From Clavelina lepadiformis (Eukaryota; Chordata; Ascidiacea; Aplousobranchia; Clavelinidae), in the NCBI RefSeq assembly GCF_947623445.1, contig NC_135245.1, positions 17,739,501 to 17,803,500 of the forward strand: 64,000 nt of DNA. Reading direction: 5' to 3'. This document shows positions 14,479 to 64,000 of this stretch, in pieces (within the stretch, counting starts at the first letter, position 1; each line of letters starts with the position of its first letter). The notes under the pieces were generated by a model that was not told the DNA's origin, made no database searches, and was given only the letters and a program-made list of their open reading frames with translations. The position numbers and the translations under genes are program-made.

Positions 14479-15660
14479 TTAAAGTGTGTTTGTGTCCGCG
14501 AATTCATCACGGGACGACGCAGCGGGCGGCGCGTCATCGGAAGATCGAGAAGAGGACGGTTGGTTACGAGAACGTCGAAGCAAGGGCGACGGATGAGTTT
14601 GTTGTGGAGGTGCATCACGATGGCTGCGTCCAGCGCGAATACGGGATACAAGAGATCTGGCATACCGCAAATGCTGCGGAGATGATCGGATAAACCCGAT
14701 GGTATGGAAGAGGGCCCACATCATGGCAAGTAGCTGCAGGATGAAGATAAGGGCTGAGAGAAATGGATTCGTAATCTGTGACAATGCAAGCAGCAACGTT
14801 TGTTTCGCGGCGTGCGCGAACGTGTCTGCGACGTAGGATCCGTTGATCATAGTTTCATCAGTAGTAGTAAGACTTGTTATGACATTTCGCATTTTCTCCT
14901 TAAGCAGGTTGGCTTCAGACATAGAGCTGAGCAGCGATTGAAAGTCAGTGAACGAGTCGGAGTCAGGCAGCTCGTTGAGAATCTTCTCGTAGTCGGGAGC
15001 GTTGTAGTTGAGGTGTCTAGTCGACAAAGGTAAGTTGAGTTGGTGCACCTGCACATGTTCGTGCGATAAGGTGTAGTTGTGATAAAGGACAGTGTCCCCA
15101 TGAACTCGGAAGACAAAACTTCTAGCTGGTCGATACGATTCCAGCAGATGAACTCCCGGTAAGACAATGTTGTCTGAGATGAGTTGGCCGTATTGACTGT
15201 GGCCGTTTTGATCGCGATAGAGGATGAGAGGGCGTTGACTGAACGCGTTGCGGTACGCAAGTGACGGTAAGACGGTACCGTTGATAGAGTGACATGTTGC
15301 TCTGGACATAAAATCTCCAAGGCTGGAACCCAAGGCTTGTTGTCCAAGAGTAGAAGACAGTATCTCAGTAGGGAAAATCTTCCCAACTGCTTTGTAGAGT
15401 GTGTCAATCAGCTTCGTGAGTTGACAATGTAGGAACTTGTTCTCTTCGTAGAAAGTAGTGCGAACTTCGGAAATGTAAACGAAACATGTAAGCAGCAAAC
15501 AAATGAACATGTTGTGTTTGTAATCAGAGAAACGTTTCATTGGAAGGATTTTGCAACCAGTCCAAGAAGTCATGAATGTGGCAGAAGAGGTTGTAGCGTC
15601 GTCATCATCGTCGTCTTCATCATCTCCGTCAGAAACTAAACTACTTTGAGCTGGAGCCAT
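14479..15660 (-). CDS. Retroelement envelope-like membrane protein
   Basis: A single uninterrupted frame of 393 codons lies between the LTRs. It has an acidic N-terminal run (residues 11-21), a hydrophobic segment near residues 50-65 that could act as an internal signal, and a long ectodomain-like middle with few cysteines and several N-x-S/T sites. A strong hydrophobic segment follows near residues 300-325, then a basic, proline- and serine-rich tail. The layout matches a retroelement envelope or other membrane glycoprotein. I see no furin-type site or named envelope family. The open frame and near-identical LTRs suggest a recent insertion. Function is inferred only from topology and position. 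Confidence 0.6.
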   Translation of the reverse strand: MAPAQSSLVSDGDDEDDDDDDATTSSATFMTSWTGCKILPMKRFSDYKHNMFICLLLTCFVYISEVRTTFYEENKFLHCQLTKLIDTLYKAVGKIFPTEILSSTLGQQALGSSLGDFMSRATCHSINGTVLPSLAYRNAFSQRPLILYRDQNGHSQYGQLISDNIVLPGVHLLESYRPARSFVFRVHGDTVLYHNYTLSHEHVQVHQLNLPLSTRHLNYNAPDYEKILNELPDSDSFTDFQSLLSSMSEANLLKEKMRNVITSLTTTDETMINGSYVADTFAHAAKQTLLLALSQITNPFLSALIFILQLLAMMWALFHTIGFIRSSPQHLRYARSLVSRIRAGRSHRDAPPQQTHPSPLLRRSRNQPSSSRSSDDAPPAASSRDEFADTNTL

Positions 15661-15771
15661 TGCTGTCGTTGTTGTTAAATCAAATCGTTTACAAGAATAA
15701 AGTTAGCAGTACCAGCTTCATTGAAACACGTCGGGTCAACGTCGGTGGTCATCAAAATGCGGAGGTTCTGC

Positions 15772-22695: not shown

Positions 22696-24302
22696 TTATT
22701 TTCTCAACAAGAACTTGTGTGCTTCACTGAGGCCCATGGCAGATAAAATAACACTGTTGTTCTGTCGCTTCTGATCGGCCCAGTCTTTCGCACTGTGATA
22801 GATTTCTATGGCCTTCAAGTAAGTTGCCTCGGCATCTGAATATTTCTCGAGATTTTTATAGGCAGCTGCCAAATTGTGATAACACACACCTAAAACTCTG
22901 TACTCAACTGCTTTGTGCCTCAGACGTTCTCGAAGGAGAGTTATAGCTCGCTTGTTGTATTCAACCGATTTATCAAAGAATCCCATTTCGTTGCAACAAA
23001 GCCCGACATACTTCAGGGACCAGGCAAGCTTAATGAACTTGGTTTCTTCAGGTAAATGTTCAATCCTTGTAATTTTCGTGTAAATGTACTGAAGCGCTGG
23101 AAAACCAAAATCATTAAACAGATTCTTCTGGTTTTTTCTAGACATAGACTTTGAGACTCCTTGCATTAGCTCCAAGCATTCCATAAGCTCCACGATTTTT
23201 GTTAATGGATCATCAATGACATCACATAAATCAGCAGAACGCTGTAAAAGAAATATGGCCGCTTTGTTCTCGTAACATCCGGAGAGATGTTTAGCAAAAT
23301 TCCTCATCTCTTGCGAGGCCGGCAGTTTCTCGTTGTCTGGAAATTGCTGGTCTGTCAGTGCCTGAGTGGTAACTGCAGTATTCTTTATATCTTGAAGCTC
23401 CAGATAACATTTTGACAAATTTATTTTAACTTTTAATAGTTGAAGTCCGGTAACAAATGAGTCAAGCTGTTTATACAGCTTTCTTGCGTCTTCATACCTT
23501 CTGTTGTTCATTAAACTGTCTGCACTTTCTACACAACAAAGAAATTATGTTAAACTTTTGTCGAAAGAGCTTTTGCTAAAATATATTATGATTGTCTAAT
23601 GCAAATTTATAAAGGTTCTTTTGTTAGGTTTCGTGATAATTATATGAGTATACCATAGCCAAAATAACACTATCTAACAGTGGTTATACTGAATATCATA
23701 TCACCATTTACTACTGCTGAATTTATTTATTACAGTTAAGGCATGAAACAATTTAATAAACCAACTTTGCAGCCTGCTATTATTGTTGGCATTTGGGTGT
23801 TGAACTGTCGGTGCACTTCGAACTTCAACTTTTTCCAGTTCTTCCACCATTTGCTCAACCAAATAATTTCTTGGAAGTTTATCCAAACCATTTGGTTCCA
23901 CACCAATATTTTCTCTGCATGTTGGGCATCTAAAGAAAACAGCACCCAAAACTGTTTCCATTAGGATATGTGGGGAAATTATTTATAACATAAATTTGTC
24001 ACTTAAACTGATTTTCTTATCAATCACTCAGAGCTGTGTGTTATATTGTCTATTACATTTAAACCAATATAGCTTTTTATTTGATGAGCACAAAACCAGA
24101 CAAGTTTGATAGAAATCTTCACAATAGGAAAGTAGATACGGTAGATTCATTTCTCTTACCTCTTCTGCAGTGTGGCAGTTCTCAAGATTTGAGCAACACA
24201 AGCCCTACATAAATTATGTTGACAAGACAGGGTTAAAACAGGTTTTCTCAACAGTTCAAAACACACTGGACAAGTCAAAACATCTTGCATTCGTTGACTC
24301 AT
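22696..24302 (-). CDS. RING-finger / TPR protein, probable E3 ubiquitin ligase
   Basis: The first exon, 24160-24302, starts at an ATG and encodes a C3HC4 RING start: C-P-V-C, then C-Q-H-N-L-C-R-A-C. It ends in phase 2 at GTAAGA. The next exon begins at 23929 after a TTTAG acceptor and completes the RING with C-P-T-C, followed by a TRIM-like N-Y-L-V-E-Q-M helix. The last exon, 22696-23528, is 276 codons of helical repeat. It has TPR-type spacing (L...C-Y-L-E-L; V-E-Y-N-K-R-A-I; Y-S-D-A-E-A-T-Y-L-K-A-I-E-I-Y) and ends at a stop. The donor of the middle exon is ambiguous between about 23800 and 23815, so linkage of RING and TPR parts into one mRNA is probable rather than proven. The RING predicts E2-dependent ubiquitin transfer, with TPRs as the substrate or partner platform. 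Confidence 0.65.
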
Positions 24303-31800: not shown

Positions 31801-32757
31801 CCTGATCGCCCACTTGAAAGTTATTAGACTAGATGCAAGACTGCTGGACTGATCGTTTCAAGGGCTTTTTAATTTTGGCGCGATGATTGTTTTGGTCGTA
31901 ATAGACATCATATAATAAGCAAACAATTTGAAACAGTTGATCTTGAATGCTAGACTGCGAAAGCAGAGTTTAACAATCTACCGTAATAGTGACCTACAGT
32001 GAGATCACGTGCTGCAAAGGCAACAAAATTATAAACGTTTTGAAAAATTTTAACCTGAACTCGTAACAATAAGAATAATCCTAGCTAGCGGACAAGATGG
32101 CGAACGCTACAATGTATATAGGCCTAGCTGCGTTTTTCATTCTGTTTTTTTATTTTATTTTACTTTTTATTGATATATTGAATGAATGCACACCAATGAT
32201 AACCTTTTGAAGATGTGATGACAATACTGCTCGTTGCAAGATGGAAATTTCTCTGGTACATCGACAATGATGTACGGAAAAAGATCTCAATACTATCCAA
32301 TAAATGGTAGTACTGAAAGGTAACCCCTCTTGGTCCGCAACTTAAGACTTGTTTATATAAGCATTCATTTTGTTTCACATTCACTAAAGCATGTGTGTAT
32401 AAATTGAGTGATACATCTAGTTTAGTCTATACTTAACACAGGCAAAAGCTGCAGTCGCGTTTCTGTGTTTGCACACTTTTACCTTGAAGAAAAGATTTTA
32501 ACTGTAGGCCTATTTGCAACGCGTTTACATCAAGGCACGCTTCGCTTACCATGAGCTATGAAACAGCACATTGTGTACTCAAAGCCTTTATTTGATCATA
32601 GGTAACGATCGCAAACATTTCGTGACATGGTAAGTGATTACATAACAACCGCAGCTCACAGAAATGTGAAGTTGCTACCACCTGGAAGGGCTGGACGGTT
32701 GAGCAGATTTGGTTACATAAATCGTTTTGCACAATTAAGGTTAGAAAGTTGAAGACA

Positions 32758-33967
32758 ATGAAAGTGATTGTAGCTGGATATTCTAAAACTGGCACGAAGT
32801 CAATGGTTGTAGCTCTCAATCAGCTAGGCTACAACGTTTATGATTTCTTTGATCACTTCTGGTATCATGGCGATAGGTGGGAGAAGATATTCTCGAACAG
32901 TGGTGGGAGTATTGACGACTTCAAAGAGATGTATCAGTCGGTGGACGCGGTAACTGACTGTCCACCCAACATATTTTGGGAAGAGATTTTGCAAGCTTTC
33001 CCTGATGCTAAGGTAGGCCTACTTGTTTTATTACATAGTTCGTAGGCCAGTGAAACCGGAAAAATGACTGATATAGACAATCGCAAATATCATATTGAAC
33101 GCAATCTAATATTACTAGCTATGGAAAAACCTTGGCTACTTGGCTTGTTTGCCCTTCTAGATAATGTAATAACTAATAACCAACTTGCAAGCATATGTTG
33201 CATCGTTGATGCGTGACATGCATTTGTTTCAAGGTGATTCTGACTACAAGAAATGAAGACAAATGGTACCAGAGTTTATTGAAACAGGGCAAAGCCTTTA
33301 AGGAGAATTATGTCTACAACCTCATGCAAATATTATCGCCAACCGGTTGGAAATATTTCAGGTTTATGCAAAATGTTGGTAAGCCCGTATACTTATGTCA
33401 CTTGTTGTATTCTATAACAATATGAATAAATCCCGTTTTACAGTAAAAGCCTGAGGTGTTTCCAACAGCATTTTTGCAGTTATGGTCCTGTGGGGTTTAC
33501 ATAAACGACATCCAATGGATCATTTTGTCAATCACAATCAAATGGTAGTGAAAAAAGCTTTCAGACAACATGGACACTATTGCAAACAAGTAAGTTTTTA
33601 GCTTTATTTTGAACTCTTTGCGAAAATTACCAAACTTTTACCATCGACCTCACATAAATTTCGGTTTTAGAACTGCCCTCCTGATAAACTTCTGGTCTAC
33701 GATGTCCGACAGGGATGGGCTCCATTGTGTGAGTTTCTTGGGAAAGAAATTCTCGACAAGCCCTTCCCTCATGAAAATGTTGCTGGAAATGTTGTTGCTG
33801 AGATGATGGCCAACCGCCCTGCATTAATTCGCATGCAACGAGAAACTGGAGCCATTGTATTTCTGTTGTCTCTTGGTTTAATTTTTGGCTCCTACAAACT
33901 TTACAAATCTAACTGCGTTGTATTCACAAGCACAAGCAAACTGTACTCTGTTTTTAAGTTAGCATAA
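32758..33967 (+). CDS. P-loop sulfotransferase-like membrane protein, tandem copy 1
   Basis: Four exons, 32758-33012, 33234-33378, 33480-33589 and 33671-33967, give 268 residues with GT-AG introns and consistent phases. The N-terminal G-Y-S-K-T-G-T-K-S-M loop (residues 7-16) is the 5'-phosphosulfate (PAPS) binding P-loop of the Sulfotransfer_4 type. Exon 2 starts V-I-L-T-T-R-N-E-D-K-W-Y-x-S, the 3'-phosphate binding strand and serine. Exon 4 has Q-G-W-A-P-L-C-E-F-L-G and P-F-P-H-E-N, typical of the same family. A hydrophobic segment near residues 230-247 suggests a C-terminal membrane anchor. A sulfonate transfer role is inferred from the family; the acceptor is unknown. A near-identical second copy lies 4 kb downstream. 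Confidence 0.8.
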
Positions 33968-36800
33968 TAAAATACAGTTAGTAGACTTTACATGCTACTA
34001 TCTATCTATTTTATATTAACTTGATCTAATCTGACATACCGTATAAAGTTGAAATCAATGTATTCAAAACAACGCTACATGTGCTTGGTATATACTATAT
34101 AGGCCTACCCTACATGTCCTTTTGTTATCTTCAAACGATACTGTAAATCCTTGCCATTTATTACTGTTGCACAAGCTTCAGTGAAAGTTGCATTTTGTTC
34201 TGAAAAGTATTGACAACTGTTCGAAATGCCCTAGTGATTTTTCAATTGCTGGTTGCTTGCATATAAATCCACCATTCTAATTGTGAGACCTTATTAACAT
34301 GATTAGCGCAAACCGTTGTTGTTTGTTTCAGAAATTTTTATTCTCCCTGAGTTTCTGAAAAATCGAAAGAATAAAATGTGTATAATAACCGTAACTGACT
34401 ACTCGAAGATTCTTGACGGCACTAGGTTAGCGCTCTTATAATAGCAGTAACTTATAATGTTCTCGTGCAACGCATTAACGACGCTTGCTTCTGTCCAACA
34501 GTACTGGTGAACAGTTTTTGGCTATATGGGCAAGGTTACAAAACATTGAATGCAGTAACATACTTGCTGACAAGGAATACGTCGTCATAAAATGGAATTA
34601 AGATCTACATTAGTTTCTCTTTAATTGATAAATTACTATTAACTATAGCGAATCTTCACGTACATGTGACGTACTTTGGGTATCAGCAGGAACAGCTAAT
34701 TTACAATGACAACCCTTGATTTATTATGTTATTTGCAAGATTGTAATTTATATCGGTGATAGGCCCTAATGAGCCATGTGTGTTGTCTATACGTTATAAT
34801 TTGCGTATTAGCATTTGTCGTAATTCTGAAGCTATACTAATTAATCGCAGTATAAATTATGTTCCTCTTTGTTTCCTCCAGTCTGTCTCGTTTTAATTAA
34901 TGATATCTCTGCGTACGTTTCAGTTTTTTTTATCCTTTTTTTTCTTGTTTTCAATCAATTATTACCGTCAACGATACAACTTTTTTGATTTGGTGGCTAC
35001 GCTAACCTTTCATCGTTAAACCAGTACCATGATTACTATAACACCTTGCACTTTTTCAATTTGTTTTTGTTGATTGGTCCTGAACGTATTATTCTTGTTT
35101 AGCATGCTATACTATAACTTCTGCATGACTCCTTCTCGAAGACTTCACCGAATCATTTCATTAAGATCTGAACAGTGTACTTTTGACTCGAGTCATTAAC
35201 TTAAATCGAGTCGCAGTTTTTCATGACTTGACTGACTCGAGTGAATTGTCTTAAATGACTCCACTTAAATCGAGTCGGAAAAATGACTTGGTTGTAACCC
35301 GGAGTCCAAACCAAGACCTGCAATAAGAAAATGTTTGTAGCTCGACCAGAAATGGGATACAGTGTAAACAATTTTTTCTTCTTTCATTTTCTTCTCTTTC
35401 ATCCCTACTTGTATCAATAGAAAGTGAATTAATTAATTAAGATTTATATTTCTACTCGGTGGTAAAAGTACTTAAAGATTTCAAACTGAATGGTCAGTAG
35501 ATGGGTAACTGACTTCCCAGCAAAGCTTTCTGGGAAAAATTAAACATTTTACAAAGAATACATTATTTCCAGATGCAAAAATTGACTTTGTCCCTGAAAT
35601 CGTAATTTAGTTTAACGTTAAGTTTGAAAGTGAGAAGGTAGCCTACTTACTGTACTCGTTTTATTCATTTATCAATGTCTGTCAATAAATGCGTAATATA
35701 TGCTGCAAACTTTGACAAAAATCTACAATGAACTCATGTTAGTAGGGATGGGCCGAGACGAACCCAAACCCGAATAGATTCGCCGAATATCGTCTTTGTT
35801 GTAGAAGAATCGGGAGAACACGAATACCAACAATGCAGAACCCGAATACAATATGAAGTTATAAATTTGCTGACTTTGTTAAAAAATGATGATCTAGTTT
35901 CCCGACGAAGCTAAAACAAAGTCAGCAATACTTGCAATGAAGGCCGTTTTCTTAACGATTGTGTTTTTTCAATCGTTTTTAATTAAACACTGTTTTATTT
36001 TAAACAAAGTAGGGATGGGCCGATACGAACCCAAACCCGAATAGATTCGCCGAATATCGCCTTTATGGAAGATTGGGGCGAACCCGAATACAATAATACT
36101 TATAAATGTACTGACTTTCGTAAAAAAAGATGATCTAGTTTCCCGACAATGCTAAACTAGAGTCAGTAGTACTTACAATGAAGGTCGTTTTCCTGACGAT
36201 TTTGATTTTTCAATCGTTTTTTAAACACTACTTTTCGAAAGAAAGCGATTTGTTAATCGATTACATCATTTTAGAAGCAAGACTTTACAACTTTTGGATG
36301 AAATTTTATTGTTTGGTTCTAATACGAATAAATTCGGGATTCGTTCGTGTTGACCTTCATGATATATGGGTTCGCACGAACCCGAATTTAGGTCTACATA
36401 TTCATAATAAAACTTATTATGCACGCTTTCATTTATTTGACATTTATAAGCAAGTGCAAACTAATTGGTTGATGTCTATGTTATGTGCTGCAGTAACTAC
36501 TGTCCAGTACATTTCTTGGCAAACTTTTAAAACGAAGTAAAAGATTTTAACTGTACTTGCAACACGTCTATATCAAGGCACGTTTCGCTTACCATGAGCT
36601 ATGAAACAGCACATTGTGTACTCAAAGCCTTTATTTGATCACAGGTAACGATCGCAAACATTTCGTGACATGGTAAGCGATTACATAACAACCGCAGCTC
36701 ACAGAAATGTGAAGTTGCTACCACCTGGAAGGTCTGGACGGTTGAGCAGATTTGGTTACATAAATCGTTTTGCACAATTAAGGTTAGAAAGTTGAAGACA
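33968..36800. other. Intergenic stretch between the tandem sulfotransferase genes
   Basis: No supported exon. It holds ACTCGAGT-rich sequence at 35150-35310 and two copies of an agggatgggccgatacgaac-type element (see the repeat entries). From about 36541 the sequence duplicates the 5' flank of copy 1 (from about 32494). Confidence 0.5.
35744..36393. repeat. Two adjacent copies of a cgaacccgaat-rich element
   Basis: The units starting agggatgggccga at 35744 and 36010 share a long opening block including gaacccaaacccgaatagattcgccgaatatcg. They also share downstream matches (gatgatctagtttcccgac; acaatgaaggtcgttttc-type sequence). Together they look like tandem insertions or duplications of one short DNA element. 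Confidence 0.6.
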
Positions 36801-38153
36801 ATGAAAGTGATTGTAGCTGGATATTCTAAAACTGGCACGAAGTCAATGGTTGTAGCTCTCAATCAGCTAGGCTACAACGTTTATGATTTCTTTGATCACT
36901 TCTGGTATCATGGCGATAAGTGGGAGAAGATATTCTCGAGCAGTGGGGGGAGTATTGACGACTTCAAAGAGATGTATCAGTCGGTGGACGCGGTAACTGA
37001 CTGTCCACCCAACATATTTTGGGAAGAGATTTTGCAAGCTTTCCCTGATGCTAAGGTAGATATTTTATTAGACAGTCCTGAATACATTGAAGAGAAAAAT
37101 AGGTTGTCAGATAGGCTACCGCAGACAACTAAGTCAATTTTTTCTATCTAAAGCAACATTGTATTACAAAATGTGACGGAGACCATAGCTCAATCTTACG
37201 ACGACATACTTGGAGAAACAATTATGTTTGCCTTTCGATATGAATATATATAAATCTATATGGTTCGAAGGCCAGTGAAACCGGAAAAATGACTGATATA
37301 GGCTACCGCAAATATCAATTTGAACGCAATCTAATATTACTAGCTATGGAAAAACTATGGCTACTGGGCTTGTTTCCCCTTCTAGAAAATGTAATAAGCA
37401 ACTTGCAAGCATATGTTGGATCGTTGATGCGTGACATGCATTTGTTCCAAGGTGATTCTGACTACAAGAGATGAAGACAAATGGTACCCGAGTTTATTGA
37501 AACAAACCGAGGCTTTTAGGGAGAACTATGTCTACAACCTCATGCAAATAATATCGCCCACGGGCCGGAGATACTTTACGTTTATGCGTAATACTGGTAA
37601 GGTTGTTGTAAGACAAGACAGTATTCTTGTAAGACAAATAAATCCTGCTTTACATTTTTGCAGTTATGGGTTTGTGGGGCTTATATATGCGACATCCAAT
37701 TGATTTTTCCACCTCTCGCAATCAAATGATTGTAAAAAAATCTTTCAGACAGCATGGACAGTATTGCGCGAAAGTTGGTTCTTAGGCTTTGTTTTAAACT
37801 CTTTGTATTAATCTTAATAATCGCATTTACCATTGACTTCACATAAATTTCGGTTTTAGAACTGCCCTCCTGATAAACTTCTGGTCTACGATGTCCGACA
37901 AGGATGGGCTCCATTGTGTGAGTTTCTTGGGAAAGAAATTCCCGACAAACCCTTTCCCCATGAAAATGTTGCTGGAAATGTTGTTGCTGAGATGATGGCC
38001 AAACACCCTGCATTAATTCGCATGCAACGAGAAACTGGAGCCATTGTATTTCTGTTGTCTGTTGGTTTAATTTTTGGCTCCTACAAGCTGTACAAATCTA
38101 AATTTGGTGGGGCATTCCTTTGCAAGCTGTATTCTCGTTTCAATTTCGCGTAA
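36801..38153 (+). CDS. P-loop sulfotransferase-like membrane protein, tandem copy 2
   Basis: Exons 36801-37055, 37452-37596, 37664-37773 and 37860-38153 give 267 residues in the same structure as copy 1. Exon 1 differs from copy 1 at only a few codons. The PAPS P-loop, the T-T-R-D-E-D-K-W-Y-x-S strand, the W-A-P-L-C-E-F-L-G motif and the C-terminal hydrophobic segment are all kept. Intron 1 is about 175 bp longer because of extra sequence around 37056-37260. The exon 3 donor is GTTGGT rather than the GTAAGT of copy 1, which may weaken splicing. It looks functional; the duplication is recent because flanks and introns still align. Confidence 0.78.
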
Positions 38154-49588: not shown

Positions 49589-51466
49589 ATGGCGTTTGGT
49601 AAACGTCATTTACGCTTTTTGCTTTTAATTTTCCTATTGATTCTGACGATGAAAAAAATAATAAACTTGAGAAAAGAAAGCAACTTCATTTCAAGCTTTC
49701 GAAAAATAAAAAGTAAATTAGAAAGTTTGTTTAAGATGGATGGATAAAACAATACAAACTTATATACAGCATGAGTTCGTTTTAATAATTACGCAAAAAT
49801 TAGCCTCTTTTTAAATTGTTCTTTAAAAAATAACGATTAACCAGTAGTTTTAATTAGTGCAAGAACCACTTAAGCTCCATCCGCTTTCGTCGAAAGAACC
49901 ACACAGAAGTAGAATGCTTGAGATGCGGGAGAAATGCAAGGGAAGAGACCAGGAAGTCGGAAATATTCTCTCCAGCACATTCAAATACAACGATCAGCTA
50001 AAGCTGGTCATGTGTGAAGTGCCGAAGGTAAAAAACTGCTTCAGAGCAACTTTTAAACTCTGCATGGTTATAAGATAAACATTGAGTAGATATCTAAGCG
50101 TCAGATTTGTACCTCAATTTTAGTCGTGTTTAATAATTGAGAAAAATACATATACATGACATACAATACATGTAGGTGGCAAGCACTACTTGGCAAATAT
50201 TATTACTTCGTCTGGGAGGATTCAAAGGGAACATAACAAAAGATCTTCGTAAACGATGGGACTACGCAAAAATTCCAAACAAGCAATTTATTCAGTTAAT
50301 ATTTTATGCTGCACATAAGAATACGATCAATGTAAAAGTCTGATCGAACGTGACTTAGGCTATAACTTTGCTCTTATTTTCGCGATTTTGCGCTGTAGGC
50401 TCAAAAGCCAAACCGAAGCTCTGGCGCGCATGGCAACCTACACAACCTTCTTTCTAACGCGACATCCTTTCGAAAGACTTGTCTCAGCTTATTTTGACAA
50501 GTTTTCAGGACGAAGCACTTATGAATATTACAAGAAAAATGTCGGGAGAGCGATTGCTAGAGCTCAAGCGAAAGCGCATTTGTATGGATTGCATGACAGG
50601 TAGCCTATAAAGAATTGTTAACATACTTTATTAAAAGTGATTTAAAACTTGTCTTTGTCGCTTTGTAATGATGATTTCCGAGAAAATGTTAACTTTGAAC
50701 AAAATAAATCTCACTAGCATCTTCCATGATGACCTGTTGGAAAAAGAAGATTTTAAAAAGCTAGATTCCAAGGAAAAAAGCGAAGTGATCCAATACATCC
50801 ACATCATGAAAACTGGAGAAATCTCCTTTCCGCAGTTTGTGAAGTAAATCATCGAGCTCTCTTACCATTTAGAAGCTTAGATTTATTCTTTTTTCCATAA
50901 TGCCGTTGAGGTCATTCAGCATAAACTATACGTTCTTATAGACCTATATAACTCTCGGTCTCGCCTTACTTACTGATCTTATCTATACATGCTCCTAAAA
51001 TATCTTTAAACGTTGAATATATTTTCAATGCTTCCGAAACATTGTAGTATGGACTATTATTGTCTTTTAGTTGGCGCATCATGAAAATTAGTATTTTCCC
51101 GACTGCAGGTATCTGATTGGATACAAGAAAAACAACAACGTAGAAAAAATGGATAACCACTGGTTGCCGCAAATGCAGATCTGCCGACCGTGTGCGTTCA
51201 GTTACAGCTACATAATTCGCTTCGACAATCTTACCAACGAATCCAACAAACTGCTTGACTATATTCAGACACAAACTACAACGGAAACGTTGCCTAAAGG
51301 CCCTCGAATAACATTCCCTGGCAACAATCGGCCATTTGTTAAACACGAAGAAACAGAAAAAATGCTGAAACAGATTTCAGACGAAGATGTCGAAATTTTA
51401 AGAGAAATTTATGCTGACGACTTTTCTGTTCTCAACCATGATCCTCATTTATATCGAGGGCATTAG
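49589..51466 (+). CDS. Golgi carbohydrate sulfotransferase (HNK-1ST/CHST8-14 family), six exons
   Basis: Exons 49589-49712, 49858-50027, 50176-50294, 50399-50599, 50718-50843 and 51109-51466 (TAG) give 365 residues, all GT-AG with matching phases. Residues 8-22 are a type II signal anchor after a short basic tail, as in Golgi enzymes. The 5'-phosphosulfate loop is C-E-V-P-K-V-A-S-T-T-W (94-104). The 3'-phosphate motif is T-R-H-P-F-E-R-L-V-S-A-Y (158-169). The late H-W-L-P-Q-M-Q-I-C-x-x-C and Y-I-I-R-F-D-N-L motifs complete the family pattern. It should transfer sulfate from PAPS to glycans; the exact acceptor cannot be read. AATAAA follows near 51650. The minus-strand fragment at 39.6-40.1 kb is a decayed relative. 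Confidence 0.87.
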
Positions 51467-55331: not shown

Positions 55332-58300
55332 ATGTGTTTGAAGAATGATGGGTTATTTACAAAAGACTTGCTGAATTACAATGCCCAAGAATTCCTCACC
55401 AGCTGGAATGAAGATGACTTGCTTGGGTCTGGTGGTTATGCTTGTGTTCGAAAATGTCAGCATCCTAAGCTTGGAGAGATTGTGGTGAAATGTTTTGCGA
55501 CTTGTGGGTCCAATGTGAAACAAGACAAAGTTTTCGAAGAGTATAGAAATGTTCTTGCTTGTTTTGCTTAGTGCCTATGTGAATAGTGATTTGATGCTTG
55601 TCGCTTATTCCTTGTTAAATGTAATGTTTTTTTTGGAAAATAATGACCTGCTTTGCTTGCAGGACTGCCCGCGAAGCAAACGTGCTTGTTCGGTTGAAGC
55701 ATAAAAATGTTGTGAAAGTGCATGGAATGACTCTTTGGCTGAACTCCCTTGGAATTGTGATGGAGATAATTGAAGGTGAAAATTTGGAAGATTTTCTCAT
55801 TGTGCAGGATCCAGAATGTGTTCCCTGGGGACTGAAGATGAAGTTTGCGGAGGAAATGGCCGATGGTCTGTCCTATTTACACCATCACGACAGGAGAAGG
55901 GCTTTTGTTCATGGTGATCTGAAACCACAGAACATCTTGCTTACCTGCGATTTGCAGTTAAAAATTGCCGATTTTGGTTCGGTTACGATAAATTTAGCGA
56001 CAGGCATTTCAAAATCGTCAATTGAAGTGGCGCCGACTACACAACACACAGCGTTTTATGCTGCTCCAGAGTTTTTAGATGATCCAACAATTCAACGTAC
56101 TTGTTCTATGGATGTTTACAGGTAATATGGCACAAATTTTATTTGTTCAGGTTAATTAAATAAACAAAGTGGAAAATGTTGAAATATTAAGATACCAGAT
56201 GGTTACAATCAACGCAGGTAAATCTGAAAAAAAGAAAGTGTGAATCTAGCTTAATCTTTTTTAGTTTTATCATCGTTTTTTGTGAATAGTTTCCCGTTTA
56301 ATCCCAAGTTTTGTTTTTAACTTTGCAGTTCTGCACTGATTGAGTATGAGATTATGACACAAAAGCAAGTTTTTAAAGGCGTCCATCCTCATATTATATT
56401 GGAGTTGATCATTAGAAGAGGCCTTAAACCTGATGAAAGGATTCTTGCCAGTGTGGAAAAATCGTTGGAGAATCGACCCGATGATCTGGAAATATTTCAC
56501 ATAATTGAAAACGTAATGAGAAAAAGTTGGGATTTTGATCCACAAATACGCCCTGATATCAGAGACGGTATTCCAATAATATACAATACAATTTTTAATT
56601 TTTTGTGTGGTATGAGTTGAATGATTTGCAAAAACTTTTTTCATGTTGGGTTTCATGCATCATTCAGTGCACGCCACATTAAACAAAGCCTGGACAAAAC
56701 TGAATAAAGACCAGCTTAACACCGACATTGAGAAACTGAAGCCACTCACTGCTTCAATGGAAGAACAGATCAAATGTGTTAAAGTAGGACTTGATGAATT
56801 TAAAGCTCCATTTAGAAACACTAAAGCCCCAGGTACGTTACTGCATCTGTTTTGTGTTGCATTGTTCATTGGGTTTTACCCCAAGGATATCGCTATTGTA
56901 ATAAATATTTTGTATGATTTTTAGTACTACTGTAGTTGTTTTAGTTTTGTACCAGTTAAATTAAAACGATTTTTAAGAGAGTTCAAGACGTGATTACTGT
57001 TTGGTTAATGTTTGGTTCATTATACGCTTTCTTAAGATATCAAACATACTGCACCAGCCAAGGAAGAGGAGAAAGTGTTCAGTGAAAAGCTGACATTTCG
57101 CTGCCCGGGTCTCTGGCGTCACATATCGAGCGCTGCTTGGCAAAGCATAAAGAGACATGCTGAGGCGATGTCTAATTGCAACATCACGCATGTTATTGTA
57201 CGTTTGTTGTAGAATATTAAAACGTTTATAGTTTGTTCCATTTTTGAACTATGGTCCAATTGAAACTGTTTTTAACTTTTTTGGCATTGTTGTTTACTAT
57301 TTTTGAAATATGTATTTATTGTCTTTGTAGGGCCCCACTCATAAAAAGCAATCTGTACTTCCACATAGGTAATAGAAGTCTGCTGTTTTAATTTTTATCG
57401 GTAGTTATTGCGACATTGTCACAACTGCTTAGTGTGGATGATTGTAAATGGCTGTTTGTTTTTGTCACTACATATGACATGATACATTACTGGCATAGCT
57501 TAATGTTCTGTTATTGTGGAGTCAATCAATCAATCAACTATTTTCCAGTTTGATGTTAACAACATTCATGAAATGTATTATGCTATAAAGTGCCATGATC
57601 CAAATTTAATTGTTACATTTGTGTAATAGCTTTTTAGCTGATTGCTTTCTTGCAGCTCACGCAAAGTTGGAAAAATAGATGTTAGTGTTACATGTGGTGA
57701 CATCACAAATGTGACCTCTGATGTCATTGTCAATGGTGTTTTACCCAGCTTCATTCTGAAACATGGTAAGTTTTAAGCAGTGCCTACCAAATTAAGTAAG
57801 ATTTAGATGTGTGAGAATACATATAATGAATTTGTTATTGATGCAAACCCAAATCTGCCATTTGTGCTTTTCATACATAGTCAAAGCACAGTACAAGCAG
57901 GGAAATTATGCTTGAGTTTGTCATATATTAATGAAGAATAGATATTTACTTATTTTCGGCTTAATTAAAATTGCCAAACATTCTCGTAAACGTTCTATCA
58001 TCTTTAAAGTCAATCATACAAAGCAAAGAGTTTGTTCCTGTTTTCTTACTTCTTACGAAATAAAGATTCCCTCAAATCTACGAACAAGATAGATATACAT
58101 TTATGAATATGTTGCTAAATGAGCATTCTTAATGCAGTACCTTGTTGAATTGGCAGGAGACATATCCTCCACCCTAATCAAAAAAGCTGGCAATGAAGTT
58201 CAAACTCAATGCAATAACAATCCTTTCATTAAGACGAAGACTCTGAGGATAACAGGAGTAGGAAAACTTTCTTGCAAGTATATCATCCACTTGGTTATTC

Positions 58301-61300
58301 CACAATCTCTTTTGGATTATGCTGAAAACATCAGGACTGTTTTGGAAGAAGCTGAAAAGCTTCATGTTACATCCGTTGCTTTTCCTGCACTTGGCACAGG
58401 TACAATCTAATGCTACTTTTCACAGATGCTATTTTCAAACATAATATAATTTCTATGTTTATATATGGTTGATGGGGCTAGCATAAGAAATATTCTGTAA
58501 TTATCTCTTTGCGTTATTAGGTATTAGAATTAAAACTTCATCTTGAATAATACCATTAGCAATTTATCATTACATACCTTCGCCTAGGAGGTTATTTTTT
58601 TACTTTTCATTGTGAACAGTATTGTTGGAATACATATTATCAAATTTTTGATGAAATTTTTAGGATAACTTGGCTATGATACAAGAAACAACCGATTAAA
58701 TTTTGGGGTTAATAATTGCACCAGAAAGTGCAGACCCACGCCATATTTACTTTCCCCATTTTGTAAGAGAGTCAAGGTACCAGCTTGCCCTGAGAGAAAA
58801 AGCGTACGCAGACATGTGAGAAAAACAGAAATGTTGCCTCCGGTGTTTGTTGTACGTTGGCGATTTCAATGATTAAGACTTTTTTTATCGTGGGAAAATA
58901 TTGAACAGTCTATATGTCCATTCAGTTTTACACCAGTTGATTAGTGTGTTAAGTAAAAATATAGCATACGTCAGCATTTCTTCTATTTATCAAACTTACT
59001 GACTACAAACAGGTAGCAGCCTAACATTTTGCATTGCTGTGAACTGCACTTGTTTATAAGCTGTAAAGAAAGACATGTAGCAAACAGTTACAGGCCACCC
59101 TTAAAATTACATCACACAGCTTGTTGGCAAGCAGAGGCTAATATGCTGAGAAATCGATCTATGGGTCAACCGGTGTTGGAGATGTAGTTTGCGTTAGATT
59201 TTCTTATTATTGGGTTAAACATATGCTACTGGGCAGACAGTGAAATAATTTTAAACCCTGCAGTACCATAATGGAATGTGATCAAAGAATGCTACATTAT
59301 GACAAACGCCACATCAGAATATTCTGCTGTCTTGGCAGGGGTATAAGCATTTCCTTGTACGCTTTTTTAGTTTTACTTTTTTGTGTTTGTGTGAATGATG
59401 AATTTCAAGATGTAAAATTACTGAAGGTTTAACAAGGCTGAGCCCAGAAAGAGTGGCAAGATGCGTGCTGCGCGGAATAGAAATGTTTTCATTACATCGG
59501 GTTGAGACCACAACAATACAGAAAATTGCGCTGGTTATTTTTAAACCATCTATGCTTGTTCATTTCTGGAAACCGCTGGTGTACTTCAACGGTAAAATTT
59601 TTTTCTTGTACTAAGGTGCCGATAGTTAATATACTGATACTGTTTTAGATAAATAGTTGAAAAATTGTTAATACTGATGAAGATGTGTTGATTTTATTTG
59701 TAGACTTTAACAACCTATTGAGTAAAAAATTCTATATGCTACTTTTGGTTAGCCAAAAGTAAATCCTTTGTCCGAACACTTTTAAAAGATATGAGATTCC
59801 ATGGCTTAAAGGATGACGGCATGGATATGAAGTACAATGAACTTTCTGTTTCCATTCGGGAAGGGGATATCTTCGATGATGATTCTGACGTCATTGTGAA
59901 TGGAATATTGGAGGCTTATACTACTGACTTCCATTTTGCTCTTGGCATGTAACTTGTACAAACACTCAGTAACAATATACTGTTGTCCCTTTTCATAACA
60001 AGACAGTTAAAACATATATATCACGGCTGGAAAAATAATTTTTAGAACACTTTTATGTGATAAATAACTTCGCAATATTGTTCTAGGTGTGCTTTCAAAT
60101 AAGCTTTTGCATATGGCCGGTGAAGAGATTGAAAGACAGTGCAATCAGAATCCAATTATGAAATCGAAACACCTACGAGTTACAGACAAAGGAAAGGTTC
60201 CTTGGAAGTTTGTCATACACCTTCTTATTCCAGAGAAGATAGAGGTTTATGTGGAAAGGATGTTTCATGTCCTTGAAATTGCAGAGAAACTTGAAGTGTC
60301 TTCTCTTGCTTTGCCTGCTATTGGGGCGGGTAAAGACAGAATATGCTTCTTTTATTTATTTGCGAAAAATCTTTTAAACCTACTCAAACTTATTACTCGG
60401 ACTCAGCTATGAAACTTCGAAACAACAATTTGCGTTCCTATTCTGTATTTTTGTTTGTAAATGGATTGGATGTAAATCGCAAAATTATTTCATTGGAATG
60501 ATATAATGTACAGGTGGCGTTGGTCTTCCAGTAGCTAACGTCGCTTCGTCCATCTCCGAAGCTCTGGAAAAGTTTGCTAAGAGCAAACCAAAGCATGTTA
60601 AGAGAATCCGTGTGGTTTTGTTCAATCCAGGCCATCTTTCAGCTTTTCAAGCCAACATAATTGCAAGAAAAAGTGATTTGTCAAAATTTTCTTCGTTTCA
60701 AAACCATTTGTGTAAAATACAGTAAAATAATCTGAATACTACTTACTTCTTAGTTCTTTTTGTTTGTGTTTATTTAGTTTGTCACAATCGTTAAAAAAGT
60801 TGCATGCAACGTAATAGCATCCCAGATCGGTTTTGATTTTTCGTTGTGTTTTCAGATGTTATGACATGTGGGAAACGACAAAGGCAAATAGCAGAGTCAT
60901 TTTTGGCAGCAGTTACAAAGGAGGAAAATATTCTGGAAGTAGAAGTGTCAAGCCAGAGTGAAGAAAATGTGAAAGAGGTAATTTGAAAATATCACCTAGC
61001 TTTTTTCTTGATTGGTCTCGTTTGCCTTTTTTTTGTTGCTTCTTTAAACTGCTTGTAATTACGCAAATTTTCCATTATTCATAAGTAACAATATTAGGGT
61101 CATAATTGGAGCCCATAACAGTTACGAAGAGCAAATTATTGCGGAGTTTAATAACTGATTTGTTCTTAGGCCAAGGAAAAAGTTGAATCCTTGATGAATC
61201 TCTACATAAGCAAACTGGTAATCACGGACAGAGTTATACCAAACTTCGAAGATAACGACATGATTGATATTTACTTTACTGCTATGAAGCACCAAGTGGT

Positions 61301-63864
61301 TGTGTCCTTTTCACCAAGGCAAATAATTTAATTGTTTTTAAGTAACTGTAGCGCAAAGGAATAACAATGAAGTAATGCAATATATATTGTTAAATGTTTG
61401 TTCTTCTTTTGTAATGGCATACATTCATTCTAAGCGAAATGAAAGTAGCCATGTTGCACTAACGTTTCTGAAATTTTCTGTGTACACCGTAGCTGGTTGT
61501 ACACAGATGGTTTTCTGTATACTGTAGTTAAGCATTTGATAAGGTTCATTACTGTATTATATTTGCAATTTCTTACCCTGTTAACCGCTGTTTTTTTATA
61601 GAAATACAGAAATCGTTCTTTTTGGTTTAAGCAAGAATGTCAACAAACTGGAGCTGTTTATTAAAGATGTTATCAGCGAGGTTAAGTATGCCATGGCTCT
61701 CTCCAGAAAGCACCTTTGGGAATGGGCCATCGACTTCAATACGTATTCACCATTGCCATTACGCACGTCACTCACAATGGAACAAGCATTTTTAAATATG
61801 GTAATGAGATAAATATTCAAAAATTAAATTAACTTCTCAAGTTTATCGTAACTTTATGTTTCCTAGTTTCTGCTCATGAAGAGTTTTTGTCTTGTTGTTG
61901 GAAAACAATGTCTTGAAACATTTTTAGAGACCCTATGGCAAGCATGTTGAGCTGTTTGGTTGTCCTTTAACTGTAAACGTCAATTCAATGGAGTTCAGAT
62001 TTTGTGAAGTCTCAGGGAAATTGAAACGCTGCAGCTTTGCGAGAAGAACATGTGAGTAAAACAATTCTATTCTTATCTTTATCCTGGTTCAAACAAAATT
62101 TATCACGTGTGTCATTAGCTGACGCGGATCGCAAGACTCTCTCCGCAGGATCATTCTCTCCTGGGGAGAATGTTAAAGAGAAGAAAGGTGAGTAAAATAA
62201 ATTATATAGAAAGTTGGTGTTATTTTTAGGTTGTTTTTAATTATCGCCATGGAATGGTTACGGTGAAGTATTGATTTTACGTTTTTTTATATTTTGTTCT
62301 CTATATTTTATGTTAGTTCAAATATAAAAGAACTTATTCAGCAGATAAAAGAGTTTAAACCAACATGAAATGTTTCCTATAATGAGCACACAAATATAAT
62401 AGCTTAACCAAAATATTTACATGTTTCCGCATTTATGCTTCGTTGGTGTGGTTCAAGTAACTTATTGCACAGCATTGAAGTCATTTTCCACTCGACTGAG
62501 ATCCAACTCTCCAGGAATGACCGGTGGTTCGTCACCGAAATTCCGTCCCCGTAGTTCGGGTCCACCTTCAGAGGATGAGGACATTTTCAAAATTTTGCTT
62601 ATTGGGAACTCGGGTGTCGGGAAATTGGCGCTGATCTATCGGTTTCTCTACCCTGATGAGCCTATATTCAGGTTGAAGTTTAAAAGCACCGTTGGTAGGT
62701 GTTGGGAGTGCCTTCAGTCATGTGGTTATTTTATTATTGACGTTTTGTTTTAAAAATATAACAAGTGAGTGCGAGGTAGCTATGAGTCAACGCCGGCGGT
62801 TGTAGATCTTGCGAAAATAATCTTATAACCGTTCATCAAAAGAAATTTTTACTTTATGCTATTTCTATTAAAGGACTTGAGTGTGAAACAAAATGGGTCA
62901 AAATTAGTGGCAAGACGAGACAAATTCAAATGTGGTAAGCAATTTGTATATTAAATACGTTTGTTAACGTTAGTTTAATTAAATTTTATATGTGCCATAT
63001 GCTAAATTAAATTTTTGTAAGATACAATTTTTACACTAAGTAGATGTTAATGTTGCAAGTTACTGTCATTATTTGATCTAGGGATATTCCTGGCCAAAAA
63101 CATTTCACGTCAATGACAAGTTACTGGTTTAAAGGAGCTGATGGTATACTGCTTGTCTATGACGTCACTGACAGGCAGAGTTTCGATGATGTACCAGAAC
63201 ACTTCGTCCGCATTAAGCAGGTAATGTCTTGATTTAAGATGAAGTTACATTGTATATTACCAATCTCGATAGGAAACAAAAATACACATGGAAAATGCAT
63301 TAAAATTAATTACACACGCTGTGATATGGTTAATTTGGTTAAAAATTTATGCTGCAGCAAGCTGATGACGACGCCAAGGTTATTTTGGTGGGTAACAAAA
63401 TCGACATAAATGACAAAAGAAGGGTCGGCAAGCAGGAAGGTCTTAAGGTAATTGTTTTTTATTTCTGTGCAATCAGTAGCTAGGTTAGTGGTCAGTAATT
63501 TAAGTGGTCACATTTCAATCTGAGATGTAGGTATGTAAGAAGATTATGGTTGTTGATAGATAGGTCTCCTTGGTTTGTGCTAATTGTCATAAGTCACATG
63601 TCGCACAGCGCTTGTTTTTAAACACACGAAATAGAACACTAATAACATTATATTATCGTCAGATCTGCACGAGAATTCCGTAGGAATAAGAGCTAATTAT
63701 GACAATTAGCACAGGTTCACGAACTTTGAACTTGTAATGCTAAACGCTTACCTTGTGTACAGTTTGCCAAAGAACGTGGATTGAAATTTTTTGAAACAAG
63801 TGCTACGGGTAATATTAACGTTGCTGATATATTCACCATTCTTGTTGCTGATATCTTGAAAGAG
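55332..63864 (+). CDS. Protein kinase - macro - macro - WWE-like - Rab-like GTPase fusion (3' end beyond window)
   Basis: Twenty-two exons, 55332-55540, 55663-56121, 56329-56567, 56668-56832, 57037-57197, 57331-57368, 57656-57765, 58157-58399, 59427-59591, 59789-59944, 60087-60329, 60514-60672, 60856-60977, 61170-61318, 61602-61800, 61928-62051, 62119-62187, 62473-62694, 62874-62934, 63082-63220, 63358-63447 and 63763-63864, keep one frame for 1,208 codons. Kinase: G-loop 32-39, Lys53, H-G-D-L-K-P-Q-N with Asp155, DFG 173-175. Macro domains lie near 425-596 and 610-782 (D-V-I-V-N-G; F-P-A-L-G-T-G / L-P-A-I-G-A-G). WWE-like: about 915-985. Rab-like GTPase: from about 1040, with G-N-S-G-V-G-K-L, D-I-P-G-Q, N-K-I-D and E-T-S-A. 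The P-loop has Leu1055 where Ser/Thr is usual. Two introns use GC donors (after 59944 and 61318). Macro and WWE modules bind ADP-ribose signals, so a kinase/GTPase effector reading ADP-ribosylation is inferred. Confidence 0.75.
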
Positions 63865-64000
63865 GTAAGATTGCAGGTCGCATTACACTCATTTTTACTT
63901 GAGTAATTTTACCAGACTTAGCAGTATTATTGCCAGTAGTAGGGTGGATAAAATGAAAATCAATGTAGCACCATGCAGTTGAAGCGTTGATAAGTAACAA

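Follow-up and report, generated by a model that had tools for sequence, protein, structure and literature searches.

Does a single gene of the tunicate Clavelina lepadiformis encode a protein kinase, two macro domains, a WWE domain and a Rab-like GTPase? The question is raised by a 64,000-nucleotide stretch (the window) at C6:17739501-17803500 of the genome, which comprises 209 Mb in 95 contigs (C6 is 20,771,506 bases). The original prediction, made from the letters of the window, had read this series of domains in one frame. Tunicates are the sister group of vertebrates. We rebuilt the gene, which we call the fusion gene, and looked for relatives of its product. Our results favor one gene that belongs to a family of Clavelina kinases with exchanged tails.

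One reading frame from kinase to GTPase

We rebuilt the fusion gene from the window as 22 exons on the forward strand, 55332-63864 (Table 1), and found no stop codon. With our exon 1 and the two splice sites used by NCBI, the frame is stop-free for 1,208 residues to 63864, reproducing the length of the translation predicted earlier. Exon 23, outside the window at 64110-64187 (L009:610-687), adds 25 residues, RTSYLLEGNREGHKTYGKAVNCHVM, and then a stop codon. The complete product has 1,233 residues and ends ...NCHVM, that is, with the CaaX-like sequence CHVM. The prediction had counted 22 in-phase junctions. The frame is indeed open throughout; 21 of the junctions are in the window and the 22nd (63864 to 64110) lies beyond it. 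An apparent frame break after exon 1 was rejected, as a phase-2 donor (GA/gtatag at 55541) restores the junction.

Our first model was 25 residues longer (1,258 in total) and used other in-frame sites, an acceptor at 59752 and a donor at 60711. The NCBI model, P0001, takes the acceptor at 59788 and the donor at 60672. P0001 is isoform X2 of LOC143462538 from C. lepadiformis, has 1,168 residues and comes from the same locus, to which it aligned gap-free with 22 introns (spliced alignment). Twenty of these introns are GT-AG and two are GC-AG; one of the two follows 59944, where exon 10, in macro domain 2, has the weak donor TG/gcatgt, and the other follows 61318. The Pfam domains of P0001 are, in order, kinase, macro and Ras, and WWE is not in its list. 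A pseudogene or a chance frame was rejected based on the lack of a stop codon, the constraint between tandem copies described below, and the presence of an NCBI model at the locus. The isoform label, together with the RNA-seq that exists for C. lepadiformis (PMC10884593, which names the public poly(A) run ERR10908613), suggests transcript support for the fusion.

The WWE and GTPase exons are linked in both copies of a tandem duplication

Exon 17 ends at 62187 in phase 1 with the donor AG/gtgagt, and exon 18 starts at 62473 after ttgcacag. Both sites are strong and in phase, which bears out the link proposed originally. Were the exon 17 donor read through, the frame would close after two more codons at a TAA (62193-62195) that adjoins an AATAAA at 62196-62201, which leaves room for a short alternative end. 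The hexamer is common here, with 94 occurrences on the forward strand across the window, or 1.5 per kb.

We found a tandem duplication that takes in exons 14-23 together with their introns; the second copy is at L009:3167-6477 (Table 1). The copies are 97.3% identical over 3,317 columns, and splice sites are retained in both. The ten exons have 20 mismatches in 1,233 positions and 12 gap columns; the nine introns have 37 mismatches in 1,780 positions and 6 gap columns. The exon gaps are two in-frame insertions in copy 2, one of 3 nucleotides upstream and one of 9 nucleotides downstream of the Met codon at 62518. Because an in-frame insertion lies upstream of this codon, the stretch there behaves as coding sequence that is continuous with the WWE exons. 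We estimated nonsynonymous (dN) and synonymous (dS) divergence with the NG86 method. Over 410 codons, with 14 synonymous differences and 5 residue-changing codons, dN was 0.0052 and dS 0.059; for exons 14-17, dN was 0 and dS 0.027. That is, the copies are under purifying selection, and the duplication gives good support to continuity from WWE to Rab. The ~2.4 kb between the copies holds a 310-codon frame on the minus strand (L009:1060-1989) that looks transposase-like by eye and had no Pfam match at 1e-3.

Domains of the predicted protein

We searched Pfam with the first model minus the last exon (1,233 residues) and with a 432-residue piece. A Pkinase domain was found at residues 27-303 (E = 1.3e-35). 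Among Protein Data Bank (PDB) sequences, the kinase matched RIPK1 best (4.4e-23), then RIPK4, RIPK3 and RIPK2, in agreement with the RIPK-like N-terminal kinase proposed before. The catalytic motifs are kept: the G-loop, the Lys of VVKCF, HGDLKPQN (residues 153-160, including the Asp and the Asn), DFG and APE. The Arg of HRD is replaced by Gly (HGD), making this a non-RD kinase, a class often met in innate immunity. A linker motif, VGLDEFKAPF (residues 342-351), lies behind the kinase.

We also obtained an AlphaFold model of P0001 from a 34-row alignment. The mean predicted local distance difference test score was 69.7, the predicted template modeling score was 0.39, and the first kinase exon was mostly absent; at these values, single domains are usable and their relative arrangement is not. 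In a fold ranking with VIA-align, which in effect covered the kinase part alone (model residues 1-267), RIPK4, RIPK3, RIPK2 and RIPK1 led, with BRAF ~1 Z unit behind or tied. The best Foldseek matches of the model included PARP14 macro domains 1-2 (7.8e-23), Rab8a (2.5e-13) and RIPK1 (3.0e-13).

Behind the kinase, exons 5-6 had no domain match in Pfam. Macro (PF01661) was found in two stretches (4.1e-23, first model), and the best PDB sequence match of macro domain 1 was PARP14 (4abk, 8.8e-23; the entry is titled macro domain 3). KH-like and WWE-like segments follow. Both score below their Pfam cut-offs and are backed by alignment with PARP14 relatives, with LWEWAIDF at residue 911; compared by sequence to the PDB, the KH-WWE stretch had a single match, at chance level. 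The ADP-ribosyltransferase (ART) catalytic domain, PF00644, was not listed for the product by Pfam at E up to 10. The claim of a kinase-macro-macro-WWE-Rab frame thus stands on Pfam and the NCBI model for Pkinase, Macro and Ras, and on alignment for WWE, which is below the Pfam threshold.

The GTPase end matched Ras (PF00071) at residues 1068-1231 of the first model (2.4e-46), and its best PDB sequence matches were Rab8A (5.6e-44), then Rab10 and Rab12. NKID is kept. The P-loop is GNSGVGKL rather than GxxxxGK[ST], with Leu for Ser/Thr in both tandem copies, and DIPGQK stands where DTAGQE is expected. In switch II, FTS (the Ser is residue 1108) aligned opposite FRT of Rab8A. The C-terminal CHVM is a putative signal for prenylation and membrane anchoring.

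The kinase belongs to a family with exchanged tails

We compared the kinase exons of four loci by spliced alignment: the fusion gene, P0002 (LOC143449441; C3:23151853-23160200), P0132 (C3:23162963-23166043) and a locus on C4 (L034, aligned with P0124/P0125; the top-scoring P0007 gave two odd introns near the start there). One of the 13 alignments had a broken trace. All four loci have a four-exon kinase cassette with intron phases 2,2,1,1 at matching positions. Their tails are, in the same order, macro/WWE/Rab, TIR with a Rho-type GTPase, two Z-alpha domains, and TPR. The last cassette intron lies behind the linker motif by 6 residues in the fusion gene, 12 in P0002 and 14 in P0124. In the fusion gene, the inserted block is bounded by phase-1 introns (after exons 4 and 17), and the Rab-like part starts in phase 1. 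We counted the linker motif, written as [VILA]x[LIVFC]xx[FIL]xxP[FYL], for starts at residues 282-520, a range that does not reach the kinase of P0182. It was present in 20 of 41 proteins: 19/27 from Clavelina, 1/1 from Phallusia and 0/13 others.

P0002 has a kinase, a TIR_2 domain (1.3e-21) and a Ras-family domain by Pfam. Its TIR had no match at 1e-3 among PDB sequences. Its GTPase (residues 594-703) is nearest to Cdc42 and Rac1 (1.1e-51, PDB sequence) and is degenerate, with GDGTSKKT and TEID, and the protein has a CaaX-like end, CSIQ. Nucleotide motifs are thus damaged in each of the two GTPase tails that we found among family members. P0132 has Z-alpha in two stretches (2e-13, Pfam), with PDB matches to ADAR1 (2.3e-6) and ZBP1 (0.0014). 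The genes for P0002 and P0132 adjoin on C3:23.15-23.17 Mb (L032 and L033), 2.8 kb apart.

Other predicted relatives have TPR, Sushi or CUB tails, or Kelch below threshold (P0140), and the second unit of P0121 matched IRE1 (8.8e-37) over 356 residues. Outside Clavelina, we found a kinase-Kelch protein in Phallusia, a kinase-TPR protein in Ciona, and GH20 and Kelch proteins (best 120 of 1,869 matches). A kinase with a TIR was also found in the fungus Zopfochytrium (P0174), so this pairing is not unique. Sequences at least 45% identical to the second kinase exon of P0002 are present at at least 44 places in the Clavelina genome, and more may exist, as 58 of 537 candidates were scored. Eight close kinase places are at C3:23.4-24.8 Mb, with 72-86% identity to P0002. 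Based on these results, RIPK-like kinases of probable innate-immune type appear to have diversified in this family by exon shuffling.

The Clavelina genome has 77 TIR_2 matches (76 above the cut-off), many of them clustered, mainly at C4:0.7-3.4 Mb and C5:22.5-23.9 Mb. In the window, a 282-codon TPR frame on the minus strand (22696-23544) weakly matched the TPR tail of a kinase protein, P0179 (3.7e-5); there was no kinase match beside it.

The macro/KH/WWE block shares intron positions with a PARP14-like gene

We compared the macro/KH/WWE block to a distinct PARP14-like gene at C6:18.52-18.53 Mb, 0.72 Mb from the fusion gene and the sole locus compared. The two have introns at common positions and in common phases. 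Five of these positions are clear, at residues 460, 541, 741, 848 and 897 of the first model. Residues 596 and 807 also match, for a total of seven, but the introns there are implausibly short in the other gene; its alignment proposed 18 introns, several of them implausibly short. At residues 660 and 964 the positions differ. Because of the common positions and phases, the block looks as if it was copied, with its introns, from a PARP14-like gene. A macro locus on C7 was rejected as a relative, because the 30 kb examined there gave no hit at E 0.01.

Search for the same architecture elsewhere

In our protein searches, candidates were picked by shared words and bounded in length. We found no second protein with kinase, macro and Ras domains besides P0001 among the best 120 of 315 matches (7,992 candidates scored), nor a protein of this architecture among the best 120 of 1,869 matches in another search. 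A query with residues 850-1258 gave 11 matches among 6,327 candidates, and the ten other than P0001 are proteins with small-GTPase domains that match 33-42% of the query. Thus, the claim that no other described family has this architecture held among the matches listed. In a literature that was covered without most subscription journals, the titles and abstract openings listed included nothing on the architecture or on an expansion of tunicate RIPK-like kinases. The domains are all known individually; as far as we searched, neither their combination nor the family of tail-swapping kinases has been described.

Other features of the window

Upstream of the fusion gene, on the forward strand, are exons of a carbohydrate sulfotransferase (50319-51466; Sulfotransfer_2, PF03567). 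Farther upstream on that strand are two near-identical frames, 32638-33045 and 36669-37151; the second matches Sulfotransfer_4 (PF17784, 2.3e-24), and the pair is probably a young tandem duplicate. A 407-codon frame on the minus strand (14479-15702) weakly matches the ectodomain of herpesvirus glycoprotein B (PF00606, 2.1e-9; 37.6 bits, cut-off 43) and may belong to a herpes-like endogenous element.

Table 1. Parts of the fusion gene and the duplicated unit, counted from the first base of the window
Feature	Position	Strand	Basis or remark
Kinase cassette, exons 1-4	55332-55540, 55663-56121, 56329-56567, 56668-56832	+	Intron phases 2,2,1,1; Pfam, PDB, motifs
Exons 5-6, start of PARP14-like block, entered at phase-1 intron	57037-57197, 57331-57368	+	Same exons in P0001
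Macro domain 1, exons 7-9	57656-57765, 58157-58399, 59427-59591	+	PF01661; PDB PARP14
Macro domain 2, exons 10-12	59789-59944, 60087-60329, 60514-60672	+	PF01661, 2.7e-7; P0001 splice sites
Linker, exon 13	60856-60977	+	Rebuilt model and P0001
KH-like and WWE-like parts, exons 14-16	61170-61318, 61602-61800, 61928-62051	+	Sub-threshold Pfam; alignment with PARP14 relatives
WWE tail, exon 17	62119-62187	+	Phase-1 donor AG/gtgagt
Join of WWE tail to GTPase, exon 18	62473-62694	+	Internal Met codon 62518; P-loop GNSGVGKL from residue 1048
Remaining Rab8/10-like GTPase, exons 19-22	62874-62934, 63082-63220, 63358-63447, 63763-63864	+	PF00071; Rab8A
Duplicated unit, exons 14-23	60994-64293 (60994-64000 in window)	+	Copy 2 downstream at 66667-69977

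Discussion

We favor, with modest confidence, the following reading of the locus. It is one gene, and its product is probably a membrane-tethered RIPK-like kinase with a PARP14-derived block of reader type and a Rab8/10-like, CaaX-like end, a member of a family that swaps tails. Much of the original interpretation agrees with this (one gene, RIPK-like kinase, PARP14-type block, Rab-like end). The original prediction had missed several features: the Leu in the P-loop, a weakly scoring KH segment, the CaaX-like C terminus, the tandem duplication of exons 14-23 and, most of all, the large Clavelina family with swapped tails.

If the gene is expressed as a single transcript, as we infer, its product might work as follows. 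The CaaX-bearing Rab-like domain would hold the protein at membranes, where the macro/KH/WWE block would bind ADP-ribosylated or nucleic-acid ligands that arise in infection or stress. Clustering could then activate the non-RD kinase, which might phosphorylate itself, its neighbors or its own Rab domain and start a RIPK-type immune or death signal. ZBP1 carries Z-alpha domains. Human RIPK1, RIPK3, ZBP1 and TRIF all carry RHIMs (PMC9444067). Because RIPK-like kinases of Clavelina are covalently joined to TIR and to Z-alpha, an immune reading is the most economical, although it is not proven.

Several points weigh against this reading. The fusion gene is known from DNA and from NCBI isoforms that are themselves predicted models, and the first exon of P0001 is short, odd and unlike our exon 1. 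Two parts of the block scored below their Pfam cut-offs: KH_PARP14_8 (PF23254), between macro domain 2 and WWE, at 18.6 bits against 27, and WWE (PF02825) at 12.7 bits against 21.1, in the 432-residue piece only. The classic NAAN...GGG loop is in neither macro domain, so that ligand binding by them is putative. With Leu in place of Ser/Thr in the P-loop, nucleotide binding is doubtful, and we do not presume a functional switch. The idea of a tail RHIM was rejected, as the core [VI]Q[VILC]G was in 0 of 15 proteins scanned, and the Pfam list of the product has no death, CARD or ankyrin domain; the wiring of vertebrate RIPKs therefore does not follow.

The family, too, has its irregular members. 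In P0132, a variant, CNFAPPFDKAF, stands where the linker motif as defined would be expected. P0182 has a GBP part before its kinase, which is more distant. At some of the counted kinase loci the matching stretch is interrupted by stops, several relatives come from automatic prediction and could be false joins, and a kinase tree (36 rows) does not settle the kinship of the fusion gene and P0002. Moreover, nothing about a Kelch, TPR, Sushi or GH20 tail is specific to immunity.

Three other explanations have to be weighed. Vertebrates encode PARP14 and Rab8 in separate genes, and the locus might likewise be two genes or transcript units, a kinase-macro-WWE unit ending after exon 17 and a Rab-like unit starting at Met 62518, joined by prediction or by occasional read-through. 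The early stop and the AATAAA directly behind it after read-through of exon 17, and the position of the Met just ahead of the GTPase, would fit such an arrangement. We consider it very improbable, as the splice sites of exons 17 and 18 are strong and in phase, the NCBI model joins the halves, and P0002 is a second GTPase-tailed kinase of the family. In addition, the KH, WWE and Rab parts recur together in the tandem copy, which has an extra in-frame codon ahead of the Met, and dN is 0 for exons 14-17. It is also conceivable that the gene arose recently by domain shuffling, is short-lived and has little function under selection, or none. The matches listed included no relative of the same architecture, the P-loop is degenerate, the GC donor after exon 10 is weak, and the family has close kinase duplicates (the eight C3 places at 72-86% identity to P0002). 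A frame of 1,233 stop-free codons with retained catalytic motifs and purifying selection between the tandem copies make this improbable.

The remaining explanation concerns membrane traffic: a tyrosine kinase-like (TKL) kinase might phosphorylate its own Rab8/10/12-like domain in cis at Ser1108 of switch II. LRRK2 acts on Thr72 of Rab8A and Ser106 of Rab12, and the Rab12 phosphopeptide has FNS, according to PMC4769169. The GTPase is nearest to Rab8A, Rab10 and Rab12, its FTS, opposite FRT of Rab8A, resembles the FNS of Rab12, and it has a CaaX-like end. Against this, the best matches of the kinase are RIPKs, with LRRK2 absent among the 60 PDB matches listed, and PMC4769169 also reports that LRRK2 phosphorylated Rabs with an equivalent Ser far less in vitro. 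The P-loop is defective, and the TIR and Z-alpha tails of relatives better suit immunity. We regard a role in traffic as unlikely.

A more tentative notion, and one that we find doubtful, is that the family is an animal counterpart of the integrated-decoy kinases of plants. The degenerate Rab and Rho tails would be bait, macro/WWE or TIR would read or make ADP-ribose-type signals, and the kinase would fire the response. In wheat, Sr43, Lr9 and Pm4 have a kinase joined to unrelated integrated domains that are possible decoys, according to PMC10260397. The common logic is a kinase with integrated domains; we claim no evolutionary link, and the comparison is an analogy only. If it were true, a tunicate could obtain a set of kinase-based sensors without adaptive immunity by exchanging tails at a single phase-1 intron, and the fusions would predict partners elsewhere in animals (RIPK with TIR, Z-alpha, PARP14 and Rab8 modules).

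On the reading that we favor, RIPK kinases, ADP-ribose reading and Rab8-type GTPases, usually studied apart, meet in one predicted tunicate protein. In vertebrates, TIR and Z-alpha are parts of TRIF and ZBP1, two independent proteins that come together with RIPKs; Clavelina fuses both to the kinase cassette. If real, the fusions hint at which modules cooperate and offer an animal example, open to counting, of how exon shuffling diversifies kinases of immune type.

Comparison with known systems

Within Clavelina, P0002 resembles the fusion gene in the phases of its cassette (2,2,1,1), its linker motif, its degenerate GTPase and its CaaX-like end. It differs in having a TIR where the fusion gene has macro/KH/WWE, and in a GTPase that is Cdc42/Rac1-like. 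The fusion GTPase is 39-43% identical to chains of Rab8a and Rab10 and has the G4 motif and the switch-II core in common with Rab8, Rab10 and Rab12. A CaaX-type end is also common to them; that of Rab8A has a single Cys. In contrast, these Rabs have GKT/S and DTAGQE where the fusion GTPase has GKL and DIPGQK, and the latter sits inside a large protein.

PARP14 has the order macro-macro-macro-KH-WWE-ART, and the fusion protein has tandem macro, KH-like and WWE-like parts in that same order. Unlike PARP14, it has no listed RRM or ART (PF00644) domain, and a kinase precedes and a GTPase follows the block. RIPKs have an N-terminal kinase and then an interaction tail. Vertebrate RIPK1, RIPK2, RIPK3 and RIPK4 include the best sequence match of the fusion kinase and are among its best fold matches, and their order of N-terminal kinase and tail is that of the fusion protein, in which the tail itself is macro/KH/WWE/Rab.

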